The notes under the pieces are model-generated. The model did not search any database. It was not told the DNA's origin and saw nothing but the letters and a program-made list of their open reading frames with translations. The position numbers and the translations under genes were made by a program. A stretch of 64,000 nt of DNA from Fontisphaera persica. Its GTDB lineage: Bacteria > Verrucomicrobiota > Verrucomicrobiia > Limisphaerales > Fontisphaeraceae. This document shows positions 1-39,712 of this stretch, piece by piece; positions within the stretch are counted from its first letter, which is position 1; every line of letters begins with the position of its first letter. Location of the stretch: assembly GCF_024832785.1 (NCBI RefSeq), contig NZ_CP116615.1, positions 1,798,001 to 1,862,000 on the forward strand. The letters are read 5' to 3'.

Positions 1-990
1 GCGCTTCTCGCCCAGTTTTCGGAGGCGTTGGATGCTGTAGAAGCGGTAGTAGATGTCGCGTTGCTTGCGGCTGGCCTTCTTGGGGTAGATGAGGTCGCGT
101 TCCTCAATGACCATCAGGAACAGGATGCGGTAGATGAGGCGCAGGAGCCATTGATAGAGCTGGGTGGGCTGAACCTGGCCTGCTTTGACGGCATCACGGA
201 AGGACTGGTTCTGAGGATGGCTGAGAAAACCGTTGGCCAGGGCGATGATGGATTTCTCAACGGCAGCGCTGAGGCCGTCACGGATGCGGGAGCCGGATTC
301 GAGGGAGTCCTGGTGGTAGCGCTCAATGATGCACTCAGCACCAGCGTCGTGCTTGAGCGGCATCCGGGAAACGTGGACGAGCCGGTAAAGGAGAGCGAAG
401 TCAGGGAACAGCTCTTCCTCCATCATGCGCTCCAAATCGAATTCGAGGTAGGAGAGCTTGATGAGGCGGCTGCTGTCACGCAGGAGGCGAAGCTGCTGGC
501 CGTTGGTGACGATGGCGTAGAGGTGCTCGGTGAGGTTCAGGTATTCCTGCACCAGAGCATGAGGCGACATGCGCGGGCCGCTGTCCTCGCGTTTTTTGTC
601 GAGGCTGTCCCGGTAGCCCATGATGTGGACTACAAACTGGTCGCGGGTGGGAACGCGATGGCTGAGGAAGTAGTTCTTGCCCAGGACCTCTTCGCCTTTG
701 CGGGCCAGTTCAACCTGATAGCCCAGCAGACCCAGGAGCGGCACGACCCAGAAGTTGCGGGTCTCAGTGGTAGCGGAGGTGCCTTCCTTGGTGGCGTCGA
801 GCTTACGACGGAAGATGCGCCAGAGGTCTTGGGCATCCGCCCAGGCACGGACAATCTCGTCCTTCACCTTGGCATCCGCAGGCAGCCCGAAGTCGGAGGG
901 CTTCTGGCCAATGACATCGGCTTGCTCGATTTTCTCGAGGATGTCAGCGGCAAGAATGCTGCCTTCGATGCGGATGGAGGGGAATTTCAT
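1..990 (-). CDS. Eco57I-type DNA methyltransferase, N-terminal part (runs off window)
   Basis: This is the last visible gene of a four-gene minus-strand operon and it is cut by the window edge after 330 codons. The frame begins ATG-AAA-TTC (residues MKFPSIR) and stays open to base 1. The visible part resembles the N-terminal region of large class I adenine-N6 methylases of the Eco57I/type IIG group, including the methylases found next to DISARM helicases; I recognise stretches such as MSPHALVQEYLNLTEHLY and the NGQQLRLLRDSSRL segment. The SAM-binding and NPPY catalytic motifs lie downstream of the window, so activity cannot be judged here. Its start overlaps the stop of the upstream nuclease gene by ATGA, which implies translational coupling. 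Expected role: host DNA modification, or a restriction component, in a phage-defence system. The family call is from memory of the N-terminal sequence and is moderately secure. Confidence 0.72.
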   Translation of the reverse strand, partial: MKFPSIRIEGSILAADILEKIEQADVIGQKPSDFGLPADAKVKDEIVRAWADAQDLWRIFRRKLDATKEGTSATTETRNFWVVPLLGLLGYQVELARKGEEVLGKNYFLSHRVPTRDQFVVHIMGYRDSLDKKREDSGPRMSPHALVQEYLNLTEHLYAIVTNGQQLRLLRDSSRLIKLSYLEFDLERMMEEELFPDFALLYRLVHVSRMPLKHDAGAECIIERYHQDSLESGSRIRDGLSAAVEKSIIALANGFLSHPQNQSFRDAVKAGQVQPTQLYQWLLRLIYRILFLMVIEERDLIYPKKASRKQRDIYYRFYSIQRLRKLGEKR

Positions 991-2087
991 TTCTTCCGGT
1001 CCGTGCTCTCGGGCAGTTGCAGTGGGGCGTCTTTGAACCGCGCCTTGAGACGGGCACGGGCTAGGAGGACAGCCTGATGGAGTTTGCGCTCAAGTTCCTT
1101 CTTGGGCAGAACCTCGGTCCAGTAGGAGGCAACCCGGATGCCACTCTTTTCGAGATCGAGAAGCTCAACCGTTTCGTGCTTTTTGCCCGCGCAGAGGATC
1201 AGTCCAATGGGGGCTTCCTCACCGGGCTTGCGTTCATATTTATCGAGCCAGCGGAGGTAGAGTTCCATCTGCCCCTTGTCGCCGGGCTTGAACTCATCCA
1301 GCTTCAGGTCCATGGCGACAAGCCGCTTCAGGTGGCGATGGTAAAACAGCAGGTCGAGGTAGAAATCCTCTGCGTCCACCGTGATGCGTTTCTGACGTTC
1401 AAGGAAAGCGAAGCCGACACCCAGTTCCAAGATGAAGGACTCCATCTCACGCAAAATGGCAGCCTCCAAGTCCTTCTCGGCGTAAGAGTCTTTCAAACCA
1501 AGGAAATCGAGCAGATAGGGGTCCCGAAACACGAGGTCTGGAGTGAGCTTGTCTTCCTCGCGGAGTTGTTTCAGTTCCATCGCGGCCAGCTTGGCGGGCT
1601 TGCGGGAGAGGGCGGTGCGCTCAAACAACATCCCGCCGATTTTCTTCTCCAGGGTGCGAGTGCTCCAACGCTCCAACCGGCACATCTCAGCGTAAAACTC
1701 GCGTTTGAGCGGGTCGTCCAGCCGGATGATGTGGAGAAAATGGGTCCAGCCCAATTGTGTCATCAGTGATGACACAATCTTAGGGTTGGGGAACGCCTCG
1801 GCAAACCGAACCATGCGAAACAGGTTCCGTCGTCCAAAGCCGCGACCAAACTCGACCTCGAGTTGCTTTGCCAATGTGGCCACGATTTGCTCGCCGTATT
1901 CAGCCCGCTTTTCCTTGAGGATGTCCTTGCGGATGCGCTGGCCAATTTGCCAGTGCAGCAGGGTCAGGCTGGCGTTGACGGTGTGCGCGACCTGCTGGCG
2001 GGCAGCGAGGATGAGTTCGCGCACATCAGCCAGAAGCGGCTTCGATGATCTGGCTAGCGTGGTGATTGTCTTGGCCATGCGATTCAC
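987..2087 (-). CDS. DUF1016/YhcG-type PD-(D/E)XK nuclease family protein
   Basis: A 366-residue protein of the YhcG (DUF1016) family. The N-terminal helical half (about 1-190) has the family pattern with LLHWQIGQRI and a GRGFGRRNLFRMVRF segment. The C-terminal half carries the nuclease-like core: E215, D245 in FYLDLLFYHR, and D260-L-K262 in AMDLK, matching the E...D...(D/E)XK order. Family members are often linked to restriction systems, and the fold predicts DNA cleavage, but substrate and activity are not shown by sequence. The start is a GTG whose bases overlap the preceding SNF2 stop (GTGA); an in-frame ATG at 2078 is the alternative. Its stop overlaps the methylase start. It takes the position where a canonical DISARM locus would have other partners, so it may be the extra nuclease of this variant system. 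Confidence 0.85.
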   Translation of the reverse strand: MNRMAKTITTLARSSKPLLADVRELILAARQQVAHTVNASLTLLHWQIGQRIRKDILKEKRAEYGEQIVATLAKQLEVEFGRGFGRRNLFRMVRFAEAFPNPKIVSSLMTQLGWTHFLHIIRLDDPLKREFYAEMCRLERWSTRTLEKKIGGMLFERTALSRKPAKLAAMELKQLREEDKLTPDLVFRDPYLLDFLGLKDSYAEKDLEAAILREMESFILELGVGFAFLERQKRITVDAEDFYLDLLFYHRHLKRLVAMDLKLDEFKPGDKGQMELYLRWLDKYERKPGEEAPIGLILCAGKKHETVELLDLEKSGIRVASYWTEVLPKKELERKLHQAVLLARARLKARFKDAPLQLPESTDRKK

Positions 2088-4933
2088 GATTTGGTGGTGT
2101 CCGGCAGCAGGATGTAGATGCCCATGACATCCATTGGCAGCACAGGATAAACGACTTGGAATTGCTTTTGGTCCATCAACTGGCTGAATCGCTCATGGGC
2201 TTCGACCAGGTGCTGAGATCGCTTTTCAGCCACGGCATCCAGCTCAGTTTGAAGACCAGCGACCAGCTTGAGTTCGTTGTCGAGGAAGCTGGCACGAGCC
2301 TCGGGGGTGAGATTCGAGGAAGGGCGGGCTGTGGCGAGCAGTGCTCCGGCCTGTTCCGAGTTGAGGAAATCCTTCTGACCAGGCGCACCACGGTAGCCCC
2401 AGATGAGCATTTCCTCGGCAACGATCTTGTTCCTGCCCTTCTTCTCCTCGATCACGTTGCGGCAGCGGAGCAGGAGAATGGTGGTCTTGATGGTGACTTC
2501 TTTGCAGCGAATGACCGCAGCCCGTGCAGCACCCCGGCCATTGTGCGAGATGCTGTTGGCCATCATCAACTGGCAAAGCTGCTCGACGAAGGGATGGTTG
2601 CGGCCCAGGTAGAGGTAGTTTTCCGGGGTGGGAGACTCGAAGCTGACCCGCACCATATCCTCCGCAGGGAGGATCGTCTTAAGCACGTAGGGCAGGTTGG
2701 CCGTGAACAGGCGGTAGCCCTTTTTGTCGCGGTCAATCTGGACGCCAAGCACATTGTTGAGTGAGGAGGTGACGAAGCTCTCGACGGCCTGGGGATTGCC
2801 AATCGCCTGATCCACTTCCTTGAGGTCAGCCTCGATTTCGTGGGCTTTGATGGCGTGCTGAGCAAAGATGCTGCGGGAGGCTTTCTCACGCTGTTCCGCT
2901 TCCGCGAGCTTTTGGCTGACGGAGAGCTTGGCCTTCTTGGCTTCGTCGAATTCCTCGAAGATGAACTCCGGCTGATCGTCACGTCCCTGAATCGAAATTT
3001 TGCGGTCAGGATTCAGCAGGAGGGCTTGGGCGATGGTGTCAATGATGCTCTTGCTGTCCTCGGGGAATGGAATGGTGATGCCAATGGAGCGGCGAATCTC
3101 ACGAATCTTGCGGAGAATCACGTCCAGTACCACGCCATCAATCGGGTTGTCCTTGCCGTAGAGGAGGCAGGCTTTGACTTCAGGGGCAGTCTGGCCAAAG
3201 CGATCCACCCGGCCTTCACGTTGTTCCAGGCGATTGGGATTCCAGGGCAGATCGTAGTGCAGGACGGCGGTGAAGTGCTTTTGCAGGTTAATGCCTTCGC
3301 TCAGGCAATCCGTGGCGACCAAAACCCGCTGCTGGGCTTTTTCCATGCCATCCACACGCTGCTTGCGGACTTCATCGGGATCTTCACTGGTGACCACCTG
3401 AAGATCGAGCTTGGGGTATTTGGCCTTAAGCAGAGGCGCAAGCTGGGCCCCTACGTATTTTGCGGTGGCGATGTAGCGGCAGAAGATGACGGGATTGAAC
3501 TTCTGCTTGAGGAGATCATCCACCACCTGGAATGCCGCCAAGAGCTTTTGATCGTCCTTGGGGTTTCCGAGGGCCTTGAGCTGGGTGGCGAACTGGCGCA
3601 ACTGACTGAGCTGATGCTGTGACCATTCCCGCTTCTGCATCACCTGCATGGGCGTGAAGTCGGACTCGAAACCGGGTTCGGTGTCGTGAACGGGATTCTC
3701 CAGTTCGCCGTTTTCGGAGGAGGTTTCATCAGCCGGCGACAGCCCACTCAACCGATTCTCCAACATTTCCACGCCGGCATCAGGGCTCGACATCACCCCA
3801 CGCAACAGGCCAAGCGCCGTCCAATACTGCACCCGCTTTTGGCCAAGGCGGGGATTTTCTCCAGAGATCAGCTTGCGGGCAAAGTTCAGAATCTCGTTGA
3901 AAAAGGCGGCATACTTGGGCGTGAGATCGTAGCCGAATTCCTTGGGGTCGCGTTTGGGGAAAGGCGTGTCCTCGCCCAGCCATTTCTCGACATCACCCCG
4001 TTTGCGCTGAACGAAATGTCTGGCCAGGTCACGGCGCTGGGCTTGTGAGGAGTTGGGAAGGTCCAGCAGCTCAAATTCAGGTTTCAGCAGACCGAGCAGC
4101 GAATGGAATTCCTCCGGCTTGCCGCTGTGGGGTGTGGCCGTGAGCATGACCAAATGCTGTCCCGGCTTTTGCGAGAGACGATGCAGCAGATGATGGCGTA
4201 GTTGCTGGCTGGTGGAGGCACCGGAAGGCTTGGCGCAGGAATGGGCTTCGTCCACGACCACCATCTCCGGGCACTGCTGCAAGAACACATCACGGCGGCT
4301 CTCGCTCTTGATGTAGTCAATCGAGATGATCTGGTGGGGGTAGTAGTCGTAAACGCTGACATCACCCTGAATCTCCCGGTCCAGTCGCGCCTGGGTATTG
4401 GAGCGGATGATGACGGCATCCAGGTCGAGCTTGTCCTTGATTTCGTCCTGCCACTGCTCGCAGAGGTGAGGGAGGCAGACAACGGCAAAGCGCTTGATGC
4501 GTCGGCGCTCCAGCAGTTCACGGAGAATCAGCAGGGCCTCAATGGTCTTGCCCACGCCCACATCATCCGCAACCAGCAGACGAACATTCTCCTGCCGCAG
4601 CGCCATGATGAGCGGCACCATTTGGTAGGAGCGTGGCCGGAACGAGAGCTTGGCCAGGGAACGGAATGGGCCAGCGCCATTCCTGAAGGAGAGCCGGGCC
4701 GCGTCATGGAGAAGGCGAGCCGTGCTGACGTCGCCCAGGTCATCGCGTGAGGGGTATGGGAACTGGGCAAGCTTCGGCTGATCCTTGCCGAAATTGAGAG
4801 GCAGGTAGATGCCAGCCACTTCTTCTTCAGAGCCGCCCAGGGGTTTCACCACCAGCAGGTCAGGATCATCTGAGGGCAGGACCACCCAATCGCGATTGCG
4901 CAAGCTGACCAGTGTGCCGGGTGTGAATGCCAT
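2084..4933 (-). CDS. SNF2-family helicase, DrmD-like (DISARM-type)
   Basis: A 949-residue superfamily 2 ATPase of the SNF2/RapA-HepA type. A short N-terminal beta-rich region (about 1-60) contains the WVVLPSDDPDLLVVKPLGG stretch. Helicase motifs follow in order: motif I DDVGVGKT (123-130), motif II DEAH (228-231), motif III LTATPH, motif V region SEGINLQ and motif VI REGRVDRFGQ. The C-terminal third is largely helical and charged. The N-terminal signature and size match DrmD, the SNF2 protein of class 1 DISARM phage defence. The gene abuts the large upstream helicase with no gap and overlaps the downstream DUF1016 gene by GTGA, so the three are almost certainly one transcript. A housekeeping RapA role is less likely because of this context. 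Predicted role: ATP-driven translocation on double-stranded DNA during recognition or processing of invading DNA. Confidence 0.85.
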   Translation of the reverse strand: MAFTPGTLVSLRNRDWVVLPSDDPDLLVVKPLGGSEEEVAGIYLPLNFGKDQPKLAQFPYPSRDDLGDVSTARLLHDAARLSFRNGAGPFRSLAKLSFRPRSYQMVPLIMALRQENVRLLVADDVGVGKTIEALLILRELLERRRIKRFAVVCLPHLCEQWQDEIKDKLDLDAVIIRSNTQARLDREIQGDVSVYDYYPHQIISIDYIKSESRRDVFLQQCPEMVVVDEAHSCAKPSGASTSQQLRHHLLHRLSQKPGQHLVMLTATPHSGKPEEFHSLLGLLKPEFELLDLPNSSQAQRRDLARHFVQRKRGDVEKWLGEDTPFPKRDPKEFGYDLTPKYAAFFNEILNFARKLISGENPRLGQKRVQYWTALGLLRGVMSSPDAGVEMLENRLSGLSPADETSSENGELENPVHDTEPGFESDFTPMQVMQKREWSQHQLSQLRQFATQLKALGNPKDDQKLLAAFQVVDDLLKQKFNPVIFCRYIATAKYVGAQLAPLLKAKYPKLDLQVVTSEDPDEVRKQRVDGMEKAQQRVLVATDCLSEGINLQKHFTAVLHYDLPWNPNRLEQREGRVDRFGQTAPEVKACLLYGKDNPIDGVVLDVILRKIREIRRSIGITIPFPEDSKSIIDTIAQALLLNPDRKISIQGRDDQPEFIFEEFDEAKKAKLSVSQKLAEAEQREKASRSIFAQHAIKAHEIEADLKEVDQAIGNPQAVESFVTSSLNNVLGVQIDRDKKGYRLFTANLPYVLKTILPAEDMVRVSFESPTPENYLYLGRNHPFVEQLCQLMMANSISHNGRGAARAAVIRCKEVTIKTTILLLRCRNVIEEKKGRNKIVAEEMLIWGYRGAPGQKDFLNSEQAGALLATARPSSNLTPEARASFLDNELKLVAGLQTELDAVAEKRSQHLVEAHERFSQLMDQKQFQVVYPVLPMDVMGIYILLPDTTKS

Positions 4934-7900
4934 TTATTTGACCTTCTTGAAAATATCGGGGCGTGAGGCAATCCGCTCCGCGAGGTTGTCCTTGTAGTGG
5001 TAAACGAAGACTTCGTGGCCGAGGTTGAGGATGCTCTGGCGCTTCTGCTCGTCATCGGCCTTCACCACTGGATCATCATGGGGAGTGCCGTCGCAGAAAA
5101 CCCAGACGTTGTGGTGGTAGTAGAAATCGGGCTGAACATAAAGGCCCTCGACGCATTTCTGGGCAGCGTCAGGCAAGCGAAGTCCGTGATCGTGCAGATA
5201 GTCCAGGAATTTGCGCTCTGTGACGGAATTGGGGTCGAGGTGATGCAGCAGGGTCTGGTAGTGGTCTTCGTAGTTCTTGAAACTCGGATTGGTGAGCAAT
5301 TCGACTTCGCAGGCCTTGAGCTTCTGGAGGGCATCCTGGATCAAGTGCCGGTCAATAATCTTGTGATCGCGCTGGTTGTAGTAGCTAAGGAGGTCGTCGT
5401 AGGAGGCAGGTCCTTTGTAGTCCACTTCATCGAAACGGCAGACTTTGATGGCTTCCTCGATCACCTTGCGGAAGATGGTCGGGTCTTCCACAAACTGGCT
5501 CAGGATGCCCAGACTGCCTTCAGCGGCTTCGAAAAGTAGAATGTTGGGATGCTCGGGATCGCCCATGGAAACGACCCCCAGCTCGTTAGATTCGATCTGG
5601 AAGACGTTTTCGATGGCCCGCTTCAAGGCGTATTGCAGGGTGATGACGCCTTCCGGTGCCAGGGCCAGCGTTTTGATCGGCTCGATGTAGAGGGCGTCAG
5701 CCGTGTTCGTGGTGAACAGTTTCACCCGCCTGACGGTCTCGGAGCTTTCTGCATCACCCACCTGAGCGTCACGTTTCCACTCGCCAGAAATCAGCCCCAT
5801 TGGAAATCCGTCAGCAGGACGGGAGCGCCAACGACGATTCACATAAACCAAACGGGCAGCCGGCACATGGCGCACATTCAGGAACTTCTCCTGGTCATTC
5901 TTGACGAGGCATTTTCTGACCCGATCAAGGTTGCCGGGATCAACCGCGAAATACGTGTCGATCAGGAAACCTCTGGAGACGCGCTCTTCTTCCTCGCAGG
6001 AGATGCGGTCTCGCTTCTCCGCCCTGGTCTCGGACATCTCGATCAAATCCAGCAGGTGTTCCTTGTTGGCGTTGTCGTGCAGGCTGGCTCCGGAGAACGG
6101 GCAAATCTCAAGGTCCTTCTGGTCGCCGGTCAGGAAGTATCCCGCCTGCTTGCTCACCTTCGCCTCCTGCAAATTGCTCTCGGCATCCTGCACCACGAGC
6201 TGGCGGATTTCGTATTTCTGGCCGTTGTAGTAAATGATGTTCTGGGGGCCAAACTCCCGCAGGGCAATGGCTCTGGGACGGGAGATGTATTCGCCACCCG
6301 TATCATCGGTTTGGACGAAGGTGCGCAATGGCAGTCGGGTGAAGTTGTAGCCAGGCAGGAAGGCTTCCGACGCCAGGTAGCGGTAGGGGTAAAACTCCGT
6401 GAGCTGGCGAGATTTCTCGGACAGGGTATTCCGCAGCAAATCCAACTGGCGTGTGGCCTGATCCTGATTGCGCTTCTCCCGGCGATACTCCTGGCTGCCG
6501 AGGGTGTATTTGCCACTTTCAATCGCAGCCGTGGCCTTCGTCAGGGTGGCCCGGGCAGCACGGTAGTGGCGACGCCAGCGCTCCAAGGATTCATCCAAGT
6601 GCGCCACCACATGATTCAGGTGCTGCTCAATCCATTGATCGGAATACCAATGGCTGTGGTTGACCGACAGCTCTCCGTGGAAATCATGGACAGCCCGTTT
6701 GAAGGTGTTCTTGACGTTCTGGAAGGTCACGTCTGAAACCGCGAGGGCGTTCTTGACGGTTTGCGTGAGCGGCAGGTCCTCCTTGGATTCATCAATCAGG
6801 TCACGAATGGATTCATCCAATTCCTTGAGCCCCACCTCGGAAAGAAACAGGGCGTTGAGATGTGAACTGAGCAACTCCTGATTGCAGAGGTCGAGCCGGG
6901 GAGCCACCACCGCGCCAGCCACCAGACTCGGCTGATGCTTGAAATAGTGGCGGTCATGGCTGGAATACGAGGAGCAATATGTGAAGACCAGTGCCGCTTG
7001 CCCACTGCGGCCAGCACGTCCACCACGTTGGGCATAGTTGGCCGGATTCGGAGGGGCATTGCGCATGTGGACCACGCTCAGGTTCCGGATGTCGATGCCC
7101 AACTCCATGGTGGGCGAACAGAACAAGGAGCTGATCTTGCCATCCCTGAAATCGTCTTCGCGTTGAATGCGGACATCCGTGGTCAATTGGCCGGTGTGAT
7201 CCTCGCCGCGCAGCCGCTTCGATTGCGAGAAGTCGCGGAGGTAGATGCCTTGGAAGAACAGGTTCGGTTTGCGCTGTTGCTCTTTGTAGGACCGTTGCTT
7301 CACCACATCGGGCTTCACCGTGGTCTTGTCGCCGGCCCTCCAGATGATCTTGTCCAACCGAATCTGGTAGATCCGCACTTCCTTTTTCGCCTCACTCTTG
7401 GCGGTTCTAGATTTGAGAAAATCCGCTGCCTCTAGTTTTTCGAGCAAAGCCGTGATGAACTCCCGGTAGTTCTCGCCCTTCAGGTTCAGCGCTGGGTTGG
7501 TCTTCCTGGCATAGTCCCGGAGGTATTTCCCGAGGGTGCTGGCTGGCCCCATGCTCTTGGTGAAGACCTTGGTGAACCTGGCCAGCGTGTCGAGGCGCAG
7601 GAAATAGGGATCGTGCAGTTCTTCGCCTTCGTCCAACTTCCAGGGTGCCTTGAGCCGTTCCCGAATCTCCTTTTCGGCTTCCTTGAGCTTGGTCTGCGTG
7701 AGGTAGTTCTCGCTGTAGATGGCGTATTCCAGACGGAAGAAATCCAAGACGTTGCCCAGCAGTTCAGCGCGGGCAGCGGGAGCGAGTTCGTTGAGCAGGG
7801 GCACGTTCTTCCATGCCTCGTTTGTTTCAGCCACTTCTTGCAGGTCGGCGTATTCGATTCGCAAGAGGGCACACTGCTCAAGATTGGGAAGCACCAGCCG

Positions 7901-10036
7901 CCAGCCCCGCCGCAAATCGTAGAGGGCACGATAAACGAGGTAGCGTTGCAGGGCCTCTTCGTATTGGCGTCGAACTGTGGGGAATTCAGGCTCCTTCTCG
8001 CGGTTGGCGTATTCCGTGAAGGGCAGGTTCAGGGCTTTGAAAATCGCCTCACCCAGATTGGCATAGGTGAGGGTCTTGTTGGGCGATTGTTCCAGGGCCT
8101 TGCAGACACCAGCACGGAGATGAATGACCTGCAGGAAGTCGTTGAAGTGGCCAGCCTGGAGAGCGGCATCCTGGCGATTGTCCGTAAAGCTGAGGAGTTT
8201 TTGATCTCGAACCGGGAAGCCATGCGCCTCGAGTTGGGTGAGGATGGAGAAGGCCGTGATGGTGGTTGATGTGCTGCGGCCTTCGTAGCCGAGTTGCGTG
8301 AGCTTGGTGCCTTCCTTGGTCTTGGTGTCGAAAAACGTGCCGCAGGTGGGATCGAACAGCAGCGGCGCGGGCATGAACCAAGCCTCGAACTTCAGGGGAT
8401 CGGTCTCGGAGTAGTTGCCCAGTTCATCGAAATAGATCTTCGATGGCAGCCAGCGACGGTATTCTTTGCGTGGTTCCAGTGCGCCATGCTTCGTCTCGCG
8501 CACCCAGCCTTCCGGCAGCATTTCGAGGTCTTCGTCTGGATTCCACACGTCCTCGCCAACGATCAAATATCCATCTGCCGCCTCCTCGTCGTCTTCGGTA
8601 GTGGAGCGAAATTCTCGTGGTTCAAGCTTCCGGGTGGCTGGATTCTTGCACACGCAGATGTAGGCATGACCAGAGCCCCGGCTGAAGACGTTGGGGAAGA
8701 TCGGTTTCTTGTTGGCCTCGTCGGCTTGGTAAACGGCTGGCTCCAGTGTGATCTTGCGGTGCTCGTCCTGATCCAGCGTGGTGTAAACGGCTCCGGTCTG
8801 CGAAAAGAATTGGTGCAGCTTGAAGGGCAGGAAGGTGTAGCGCTTGTCGGCCAGTTGTTCGTTGACACGGGTGATCCAGGCCAGCAGTGCCTTGAGGTGC
8901 TGTTCACATCTCTCCACGCTGAGACCCGAATCCTCCACCAGTTGGCCAACGATCTCCGAGAAGCGCAGTGGCCGATTCCGCACCAGCCTCCCCTCTTTCT
9001 CAGCCAGGGCCACTTTGCTTTCGAGCCAGGTGGCAGTGGGGTGGTTCTTGAGCACCTCCTGTCCCGCGCTTTGATCAATGCCAGCGTTGATGGCGGCGAC
9101 CAGTTTGGCTTGAGGGGGAACTTGTCCGTCGAAGTTGAACGACCTGACGAGAGTTTCGCCAACGACTTGTTCAGTGGTGAACGGCTTCGCAAACAGCTTC
9201 GAGGCCACGGCTGCCACAGCCTGCTTCTGCTGCTCCATGGTGCCGGCTGAGACCATCGTGGCGGAGGTGCCGATGCAGGTGACCTGGCCCTGGCACTTGG
9301 ATTTGATCCGGCGAATGAGCATGGCCACATCCGCACCCTGCCGACCTCGATACGTGTGCAGTTCGTCGAAGACCAGGAATCGAAGGTGGCCGTAAATGGA
9401 GTTGCGAATGGAGCGCTCCCTGATCCTCGTCAGGATCAGTTCGAGCATCATGTAGTTCGTGAGCAGGATGTCGGGTGGCTCGTCACGGATCTTCACCCGC
9501 TGCTCCTCCTTTTCCTGCCCGGTGTATTGCCCATAGCTGATCGGGAACTTCTGGCCAGTGCTCTCCTCGTAGTTCGCCTTGAATTTCTCGAACTCCTCGA
9601 ACTGGGAGTTGATCAAAGCGTTCATGGGATAAACCACCACAGCCCTGATGCCCTTCGGCTCGGGATTCTTGAGGAGGTGCTGGAAGATGCTGCCGATGTA
9701 GGTGAGCGATTTGCCAGAGCCGGTGCCTGAGGTGACGACGAAATCCTTGCAGGCGCACCCCAGCCGGATGGCCTCAACCTGGTGCCGGTAGATCTTAAAG
9801 CCCTTGAAGATGTCGGTGAACTCGGGACACAGCTTCTCCTGCTTCACCACGTCACCAATTCCCCCAAAGATTTCAAACGCGGGGTTGAACTGGATCAGCG
9901 GCTCGGGCCAAAGCCTCCCTCTATCGAGTTCGGTTTCCACCGCGTCCCGGATGGCGGTGTCCTTGATGTTGATGAAACTGCGGATGTATGACTTGTAGTC
10001 GGCGACGATCTGAGAATGGATTTGGAAGATGTCCAT
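4934..10036 (-). CDS. Giant DEAD-like helicase with DUF1998/MZB region and C-terminal Vsr-like nuclease fold
   Basis: A 1700-residue superfamily 2 helicase. Motif I is TSGTGSGKS (102-110), motif Ia VYPMNAL, motif II DELH (224-227), motif III SAT (258-260), motif V SPTMELGID (974-982) and motif VI QRGGRAGR (1003-1010). The insert with SFTDNRQDAALQAGHFNDFL (616-635) is typical of DUF1998 helicases. Residues about 1460-1550, ending in the LFEAAEGSLGIL element, fit the DUF1998/MZB region. The last 70 residues (1631-1700) read as a Vsr/DUF559-like PD-(D/E)XK fold: D1637 in QPDFYY, then VFCDGTPH with D1649 and H1653. DISARM splits helicase (DrmA) and DUF1998 protein (DrmB) into two genes, whereas Druantia DruE combines them; this protein could be either a DrmA-DrmB-like fusion or a DruE relative. 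A GAGGA ribosome site lies 7 bases before the ATG. First gene of the operon. Confidence 0.85.
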   Translation of the reverse strand: MDIFQIHSQIVADYKSYIRSFINIKDTAIRDAVETELDRGRLWPEPLIQFNPAFEIFGGIGDVVKQEKLCPEFTDIFKGFKIYRHQVEAIRLGCACKDFVVTSGTGSGKSLTYIGSIFQHLLKNPEPKGIRAVVVYPMNALINSQFEEFEKFKANYEESTGQKFPISYGQYTGQEKEEQRVKIRDEPPDILLTNYMMLELILTRIRERSIRNSIYGHLRFLVFDELHTYRGRQGADVAMLIRRIKSKCQGQVTCIGTSATMVSAGTMEQQKQAVAAVASKLFAKPFTTEQVVGETLVRSFNFDGQVPPQAKLVAAINAGIDQSAGQEVLKNHPTATWLESKVALAEKEGRLVRNRPLRFSEIVGQLVEDSGLSVERCEQHLKALLAWITRVNEQLADKRYTFLPFKLHQFFSQTGAVYTTLDQDEHRKITLEPAVYQADEANKKPIFPNVFSRGSGHAYICVCKNPATRKLEPREFRSTTEDDEEAADGYLIVGEDVWNPDEDLEMLPEGWVRETKHGALEPRKEYRRWLPSKIYFDELGNYSETDPLKFEAWFMPAPLLFDPTCGTFFDTKTKEGTKLTQLGYEGRSTSTTITAFSILTQLEAHGFPVRDQKLLSFTDNRQDAALQAGHFNDFLQVIHLRAGVCKALEQSPNKTLTYANLGEAIFKALNLPFTEYANREKEPEFPTVRRQYEEALQRYLVYRALYDLRRGWRLVLPNLEQCALLRIEYADLQEVAETNEAWKNVPLLNELAPAARAELLGNVLDFFRLEYAIYSENYLTQTKLKEAEKEIRERLKAPWKLDEGEELHDPYFLRLDTLARFTKVFTKSMGPASTLGKYLRDYARKTNPALNLKGENYREFITALLEKLEAADFLKSRTAKSEAKKEVRIYQIRLDKIIWRAGDKTTVKPDVVKQRSYKEQQRKPNLFFQGIYLRDFSQSKRLRGEDHTGQLTTDVRIQREDDFRDGKISSLFCSPTMELGIDIRNLSVVHMRNAPPNPANYAQRGGRAGRSGQAALVFTYCSSYSSHDRHYFKHQPSLVAGAVVAPRLDLCNQELLSSHLNALFLSEVGLKELDESIRDLIDESKEDLPLTQTVKNALAVSDVTFQNVKNTFKRAVHDFHGELSVNHSHWYSDQWIEQHLNHVVAHLDESLERWRRHYRAARATLTKATAAIESGKYTLGSQEYRREKRNQDQATRQLDLLRNTLSEKSRQLTEFYPYRYLASEAFLPGYNFTRLPLRTFVQTDDTGGEYISRPRAIALREFGPQNIIYYNGQKYEIRQLVVQDAESNLQEAKVSKQAGYFLTGDQKDLEICPFSGASLHDNANKEHLLDLIEMSETRAEKRDRISCEEEERVSRGFLIDTYFAVDPGNLDRVRKCLVKNDQEKFLNVRHVPAARLVYVNRRWRSRPADGFPMGLISGEWKRDAQVGDAESSETVRRVKLFTTNTADALYIEPIKTLALAPEGVITLQYALKRAIENVFQIESNELGVVSMGDPEHPNILLFEAAEGSLGILSQFVEDPTIFRKVIEEAIKVCRFDEVDYKGPASYDDLLSYYNQRDHKIIDRHLIQDALQKLKACEVELLTNPSFKNYEDHYQTLLHHLDPNSVTERKFLDYLHDHGLRLPDAAQKCVEGLYVQPDFYYHHNVWVFCDGTPHDDPVVKADDEQKRQSILNLGHEVFVYHYKDNLAERIASRPDIFKKVK

Positions 10037-38521: not shown

Positions 38522-39712
38522 ATGAGTACCCAGCTTTGTCTCATGAGCGGGGAAATCATGCCGAATGTCATCGGCGTGCTGCACGCCCGCAGTGAAGCCG
38601 TGCTGCCCGTGGTCACCCGCCAAACGGTCAACCAAATCGAATGTTTTGAACGCGCCTTGCGCGCAGCCGGCTCCCCGGCGCGTTTCTTGCCGGAAGTCGC
38701 GGTCCTGCCCTATGACGTGGCCGACTGTTTTCGCACGCTGCGCAGAGTCATTGCCGAGCACCCCCAAATTTGCATCAACTGGACCGGCGGCACAAAAATC
38801 ATGAGCTATGCCGCCCGGCGCCTTGCCGAGGAAATGCAACTTCATGCTCTCTATGTCAACACCGCCTCTCGGGAGATCTTGTTTGAAGACCTGGGATCGC
38901 AAAACCGCTACACCGATTTGATTGACTCCGCCCGTCTGAATCTCAATGTGCTGGTTTATCTGTCCGCCGGCGGCCATCGGGTGGAAGGGGCGGATACGCT
39001 GGCCAGTTTTCGCCAGCGTTGCACGCCGGACCCAGCGCTGGTGCGCGCCGCCACCTTCATTCTCGATACCAATTCGCTGGAGCGCACGGACCTTTACCGA
39101 CTGGCCGAAGCCGAAAACCAGTCCTACCGTCCCCGCGCGCTCGATGGCAACTTTCTGCATGCGCTCATCCAGGCCCGCTTGATTCAACCTGCGGCCAACT
39201 CCCGGGAATATTTCCTCTCGCCAGAAACCCTGCTACATCCCTTTTATTTGCAATCCCCCCAAAAGCAAAATGCCGCCTTCCTGCGCGGCACTTTCATCGA
39301 GGTGTTTCTCTGGGACCAAATCAAATCCCGCAGCGCGGTGGACGATGTGGCCTGGCATGTGGTGCTCAATCCCGGCGAAACCGGGCGCATCGTGGAGCTG
39401 GACCTCATGATGGCCTCGGATGGACGCTTTCTCGTGCTGGAATGCAAGAGCAGCGTGGAATTAAATGAGCTGGGCGACTTGATTGAGGAACAATACGCCC
39501 GCACCCGCCAAATCGGTCGCCTGTTTGGACAATGGGTGCTTTATGTCCATCGGCATCGTGACGAATTCAACCGCCCCGGCGCAGCGGACATCATTCGCAG
39601 CCAGGAACAAAAGGCCCGCCACTACGGCGGCTGCCTGATGTGGCAGGATGATTTGCCGGAACTACCCATCAAGGTTTCCGAAATGCTGGTCAGTGGTGTC
39701 GCCGCCCCGTAA
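38522..39712 (+). CDS. CARF-domain PD-(D/E)XK nuclease, Card1/Can2-like (DUF1887)
   Basis: A 396-residue protein with the two-domain layout of Card1/Can2. The N-terminal half (1 to about 150) is a CARF-type sensor with NWTGGTKIMSYAA (86-98), the loop that contacts cyclic tetra-adenylate in the family. A short linking helical region follows, then a PD-(D/E)XK nuclease: E260 in FLRGTFIEVF, D294 in ELDLMM and E307-x-K309 in LECKSS. In type III CRISPR immunity Cas10 makes the cyclic oligoadenylate that turns such nucleases on. Here no cas10, cas6, other cas gene or repeat array is in the window. Either a CRISPR locus lies elsewhere in the genome, or another signal activates it. Neighbours are housekeeping genes. 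Confidence 0.85.
   Translation: MSTQLCLMSGEIMPNVIGVLHARSEAVLPVVTRQTVNQIECFERALRAAGSPARFLPEVAVLPYDVADCFRTLRRVIAEHPQICINWTGGTKIMSYAARRLAEEMQLHALYVNTASREILFEDLGSQNRYTDLIDSARLNLNVLVYLSAGGHRVEGADTLASFRQRCTPDPALVRAATFILDTNSLERTDLYRLAEAENQSYRPRALDGNFLHALIQARLIQPAANSREYFLSPETLLHPFYLQSPQKQNAAFLRGTFIEVFLWDQIKSRSAVDDVAWHVVLNPGETGRIVELDLMMASDGRFLVLECKSSVELNELGDLIEEQYARTRQIGRLFGQWVLYVHRHRDEFNRPGAADIIRSQEQKARHYGGCLMWQDDLPELPIKVSEMLVSGVAAP

Follow-up and report, generated by a model that had tools for sequence, protein, structure and literature searches.

A lone Can2/Card1-type CARF nuclease gene of Fontisphaera persica that probably acts in trans with a distant type III-B CRISPR system

The gene at 38522-39712 of the analysed stretch of DNA (hereafter the window: 64 kb, positions 1798001-1862000 of a genome that is a single contig of 4,726,914 bases) most probably encodes a Can2/Card1-type ancillary nuclease which acts in trans with a III-B system located ∼122 kb away, and we put the probability of this reading at roughly 0.87. 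What the analysis shows directly are the motifs, the pocket residues and the predicted fold of the protein, together with a complete III-B locus whose Cas10 carries GGDD. Of the two readings offered in the initial annotation of this DNA, the one in which the nuclease answers in trans to a type III system located elsewhere is supported by the complete III-B locus, with its GGDD-bearing Cas10 at this distance.

The nuclease and its predicted signal pocket

The gene (38522..39712, + strand, ATG start) encodes a protein of 396 aa, and its naming as a Can2/Card1-type CARF nuclease is based on profile, PDB and fold matches. The CARF sensor domain covers about residues 1-132 (38522..38917, + strand; PF23400 at residues 5-131) and includes the CARF loop NWTGGTK at residues 86-92 (38777-38797, + strand), and the PD-(D/E)XK nuclease domain covers residues 248-344 (39263..39553, + strand; PF09002 at residues 248-344) with E260, E292-x-D294 and E307-x-K309. 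The loop and the residues E260, D294, E307 and K309 had been described as intact, and we confirmed all of them in the 396-aa protein, in which the catalytic residues of the PD-(D/E)XK domain are kept. In the Pfam scan of the protein, CARF_Card1 (PF23400) scored 27.7 bits with a cut-off of 24.6, and Card1_endonuc (PF09002) was borderline by profile, with 26.0 bits in the protein scan, where the cut-off is 26.4, and 28.2 bits, above the cut-off, in the genome scan. The top PADLOC model was CARF4--CARF_PDDEXK (2.9e-25), no NCBIfam model exceeded its own cut-off for this protein, and a phmmer search of PDB sequences gave Can2 as the best match (7.3e-12), followed by Card1 (0.0029). Taken as a protein, it is a further, ordinary-looking representative of the known Can2/Card1-type nucleases. 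Its immediate flanks look like housekeeping genes on both sides, as named from their sequences: upstream, the gene of a CCA-adding enzyme ends 83 bases away, and an operon for the transport of branched-chain amino acids or urea begins 168 bases downstream.

An AlphaFold2 model of the protein, for which the input alignment had 20 rows drawn from window and locus proteins, had a mean pLDDT of 90.0 and a pTM of 0.87. Upon re-ranking of Foldseek's own matches, to which the following Z ranking is confined, the model matched VC1899 (PDB 1xmx; Z 29.9, 347 aligned residues, 4.1 Å), Can2 (PDB 7bdv; Z 29.8, 329 aligned, 4.6 Å), Cdn1 with cA4 (Z 28.1, 350 aligned, 4.9 Å) and Card1 with cA4 (Z 26.6, 319 aligned, 3.5 Å), and all four matches span the whole chain. 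Since VC1899 and Can2 are tied, the fold alone has no power to split Can2 from the orphan VC1899, and it is the pocket residues and the genome that do so.

Zhu and colleagues (PMC7969007) describe four residues contacting cA4 that are common to Can1 and Can2, namely S19, T42, K99 and Y118 in Can2 numbering. By the account given there, the orphan VC1899 has D9, D34, R96 and V115 at these places, and cA4 does not activate it. In the phmmer alignment, S9, T32, K92 and Y111 in the CARF domain of the 396-aa protein align to the four Can2 contacts, so that 4 of 4 predicted cA4 contacts are kept, and the pocket is that of Can2, unlike that of VC1899. By analogy, the protein would be activated by cA4, the ring size being taken from Can2.

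A residue table of 29 rows was compiled for the phylum, which excludes L044 and L047 as fragments as well as matches without a locus; the open reading frames taken for L041 and L043 are not the CARF gene, and L049, L051, L052 and L054 have no nuclease motif. The exact S, T, K, Y pocket occurs in 10 of the 29 rows, the 396-aa protein among them, and 7 further rows have S at the second place. G is found at the first place in 6 rows, three of which (L035, L045 and L048) are nuclease proteins near Cas10; two rows, the full-length L050 and L053, have N, S, K, R, and the genomes of their genus have no Cas10 match; in the remaining 4 of the 29 rows the comparison has no meaning. S, S/T, K, Y is also retained by L026, L028 and L040, whose genomes, all drafts of 150-300 contigs, have no Cas10 match. 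Pocket residues do not separate cleanly by Cas10 presence, and the three pockets kept without a Cas10 match mean that an intact pocket alone is no proof of a type III partner.

The proteins L050 (genome G317) and L053 (G194) are Card1-like with an altered pocket and come from the same genus, and their genomes have no Cas10 or RAMP match; the sequence of L053 is about equally close to VC1899 and to Can2. The third genome of this genus, G211, has two CARF_Card1 matches, and L055 from this third genome has the pocket G, S, K, Y.

The III-B locus and the window

A complete type III-B locus lies on the same contig as the CARF nuclease gene, at ∼1.6985-1.7142 Mb, and consists of cas2, cas1, a repeat array, a Card1-like gene, a CARF-HEPN gene of the TIGR02710/Csm6 type, cmr1, cmr6, cmr5, cmr4, cmr3 and cmr2. 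The initial annotation had proposed a genome search for cas10 and for other cyclic-oligonucleotide synthases; the former returned this cmr2 with GGDD inside the III-B locus, and the SMODS model search for cyclases returned none, i.e. no CBASS-type (SMODS-type CD-NTase) cyclase in the genome. Cas10/Cmr2 of the locus is a protein of 972 aa with the motifs AGGDD and LHDP and reaches 212.9 bits with TIGR02577, whose cut-off is 79.4. Csm1_B (PF18211) has no match, which fits a III-B Cas10. The gene cmr3 is under the NCBIfam cut-off (47.0 versus 100.4), yet passes that of Pfam, and cmr5 has no NCBIfam match, yet also passes the Pfam cut-off. At least 35 repeat copies were found at 1.7008-1.7035 Mb within the locus, and allowing up to two mismatches the repeat has 36 forward and 130 reverse matches genome-wide.

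The distance to the CARF nuclease gene is ∼122 kb when measured from the start of cmr2 and 124,441 bases when measured from the palm match of Cas10, and the gene is neither in nor beside the III-B locus. Its earlier description as lying outside any CRISPR locus is therefore true of the window, but not the whole picture, as the III-B locus stands elsewhere on the same contig. According to the same annotation, a complete type III locus in the genome would make the protein an ordinary ancillary nuclease that is merely encoded at a distance; such a locus is present, and by that measure the lone gene is of this ordinary kind.

The statement that 64 kb contain no cas gene or repeat array agrees with our searches. 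The genome's CRISPR repeat had 0 matches within the window at up to three mismatches, and a tandem-repeat scan of the window gave one 33-bp row. In scans of 59 window open reading frames, no cas gene was among the PADLOC matches listed (25 of 159 matching families), and no cas family was among the NCBIfam matches listed (25 of 760). When ten proteins of the III-B locus were searched against the window by tblastn, no match was below E 0.014, and the match at that value lies within the CARF nuclease gene; the known Card1-like paralogue (blastp identity 22%) was not listed either, so the search rules out close relatives only. The absence of cas genes and arrays from the window is thus well supported, though not exhaustively so. 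Among the open reading frames around the CARF nuclease gene, no cyclase-like neighbour was seen by eye.

A cluster of defence-type genes lies in the window at 990-10036 on the - strand, ∼28 kb from the CARF nuclease gene. It includes a DUF1016/YhcG nuclease (PADLOC PDC-S02, 1.1e-127), an SNF2 helicase that matches DpdE from end to end (3.4e-180) and a protein of 1700 aa that is matched in part by Druantia DruE (1.4e-85). Elsewhere in the genome, further CRISPR arrays near 0.438, 0.824 and 3.546 Mb are among the matches listed: the copies near 0.438 and 0.824 Mb differ from the III-B repeat at two bases, and near 3.546 Mb there are one exact repeat copy and one with one mismatch among the matches listed. 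Immediately next to the 0.438-Mb array, at a site apart from the III-B locus, lies the gene of a Cas_NE0113-family protein (PF09623, 102.9 bits; L059:2493-3788, ∼0.4365-0.4378 Mb).

Two CARF effectors are encoded within the III-B locus itself, the Card1-like and the CARF-HEPN protein. The Card1-like gene lies at ∼1.7038-1.7051 Mb (L056:5834-7057), and the active site of its product reads S-x-K, versus E-x-K in the lone 396-aa protein. S-x-K is found in 4 of the 29 rows of the residue table (L034, L038, L039 and L040), and L038, L039 and L040 cluster with the Card1-like protein of the III-B locus with support 0.993 in a midpoint-rooted tree of 23 rows chosen from the phylum set. This S-x-K group may form a subfamily of Card1 whose active site is altered.

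Relatives and co-occurrence with Cas10 in the phylum

With the 396-aa protein as query, 8 of 387 genomes from the phylum had matches, one of them being the genome of the lone gene itself. The closest relative in this sample is found in G020 (L013, L025), at 45-47% identity and 46% over the best stretch, in three pieces lying in different frames, as would result from decay of the gene or from faulty assembly. In the above tree, these pieces and the 396-aa protein are sisters with support 1.0. The G020 homologue is located within a III-B locus, where two Cmr1-like genes immediately precede it and a CARF-adenosine-deaminase-like (CARF-ADA-like) gene follows, and the locus also has cmr2-, cmr3-, cmr4- and cmr6-like genes (all by eye), a Cas10 palm match and four RAMP matches. 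The CARF-deaminase-like gene that follows is apparently split between frames too. As judged by eye in the fetched stretches, 5 of the 6 remaining genomes have a Cmr1-like or CARF-deaminase-like gene nearby, and in the sixth, G151, there is a PIN-domain-like neighbour only. G295, the only genome listed from the same order, has no copy of the CARF nuclease gene, and its CCA gene is in another neighbourhood, so that as an empty-site comparison it is uninformative about insertion.

In the same 387 genomes, CARF_Card1 was matched in 34 and the Cas10 palm in 63, with both in 28; this is a strong co-occurrence, with a Fisher p of 1.4e-19 that is too small because shared ancestry is ignored. The palm model has matches in E. 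coli too, and therefore catches some other cyclases. When only palm matches of at least ∼44 bits were counted, a cut picked after the list was seen, the proportions were 28/34 and 23/353. Six of the 34 genomes with CARF_Card1 have no Cas10 match (G151, G194, G211, G213, G259 and G317), and 0 of these 6 have a RAMP match; for G151, G213 and G259, the absence of Cas10 is weak because they are drafts of 150-300 contigs. By position, 22 of the 40 CARF_Card1 matches are within 13 kb of a Cas10 match, one is the lone gene, with its Cas10 match 124 kb off on the same contig, and 17 have no Cas10 match on their own contig, 10 of them in genomes with a Cas10 match elsewhere.

A model for the lone gene, and known systems

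In the model we favour, the III-B (Cmr) complex would meet a matching phage or plasmid RNA, upon which its Cas10 subunit would make cyclic oligoadenylate. This messenger, most likely cA4, would diffuse to a dimer of the 396-aa protein and bind between its CARF domains, and binding would expose the PD-(D/E)XK site, leading to non-specific nucleic acid cutting by which the infected cell would be slowed or killed. Here we infer cA4 as the ligand as well as dimerisation, cutting and action in trans. Several points count against this reading: the gene is outside the III-B operon, the Z scores of Can2 and of the cA4-unresponsive VC1899 are tied, PF09002 is just below its cut-off in the protein scan, and the III-B locus has two CARF effectors already. 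Regarding the last, such sharing of effectors has been suggested in a survey of type III systems for loci without effectors (PMC11229360); as this locus has its own, the lone nuclease would be an additional effector.

Quite unlikely, in our estimate, is a true orphan like VC1899, i.e. a protein that has drifted out of type III signalling and whose nuclease responds either to some other messenger or to no cyclic oligoadenylate. Precedents for it exist, since VC1899 is an orphan without cA4 regulation (PMC7969007), and in the sources cited each CARF family has genes unlinked to CRISPR-Cas (PMC4012209) and CARF-gene homologues abound outside CRISPR-Cas systems (PMC12669027). The housekeeping-looking neighbours of the gene, the structural match to VC1899, which is as good as that to Can2, and the single genus (G194, G211, G317) with CARF_Card1 matches and no Cas10 or RAMP match would also suit an orphan. 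However, its pocket of S, T, K, Y is neither the set of residues found in VC1899 nor the N, S, K, R of L050 and L053, and its own genome has a complete III-B locus.

The other reading in the initial annotation, that the nuclease is wired to another cyclic-nucleotide signal, is very improbable, and so is a role in e.g. CBASS or in sensing a phage or host nucleotide: only the distance from the cas genes speaks for it, and against it stand the kept cA4 contacts, the position of the closest relative in a III-B locus, and the lack of a SMODS-type CD-NTase in the genome and of a cyclase-like gene by eye among the surrounding open reading frames. Hardly to be expected at all is a decaying leftover without function; the three-frame state of the nearest relative (G020) indicates that the lineage may lose the gene, but the frame here is open over its full length with all tested motifs kept, and its GC of 0.587 and GC3 of 0.698 are close to those of six nearby genes (0.578-0.642 and 0.692-0.755). 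Labour might be divided, with the S-x-K copy of the III-B locus as a weak or altered enzyme and the distant lone copy as the fully armed nuclease under the same Cas10, possibly with another ring size or signal, which we consider unlikely.

If it does act in trans with the III-B system, the lone gene exemplifies a type III effector encoded far from the presumed source of its signal, a situation suggested by the survey (PMC11229360). Nothing about it points to a new messenger or a new signalling pathway. For 'orphan' CARF nucleases in general, a simple check is to ask whether the cA4 contacts are kept and whether there is a Cas10 anywhere in the genome.

In comparisons with known systems, VC1899 (PDB 1xmx), in the literature searched the nearest described orphan of the Can2/Card1 family, has the same fold and is also outside a CRISPR locus, but it lacks the cA4 contacts and is, as described, not activated by cA4 (PMC7969007), whereas the 396-aa protein keeps these contacts in a genome that has Cas10. 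The G020 homologue differs from the lone gene in being inside a III-B locus and split over three frames. Card1 (PDB 6wxw, 6xl1) has the same domain order and an aligned ExK motif, with Z 26.6 over 319 residues, though the sequence match is weak (phmmer E 0.0029). Can2 of Sulfobacillus thermosulfidooxidans (PDB 7bdv; PMC7969007) shares the CARF and PD-ExK domains and the four cA4 contacts, and its E276/D278 (PMC7969007) would correspond to E292/D294 of the E-x-D motif here, equated by motif; the differences are that 40 of 129 aligned CARF residues are identical, and that here a lone gene stands ∼122 kb from the type III locus.
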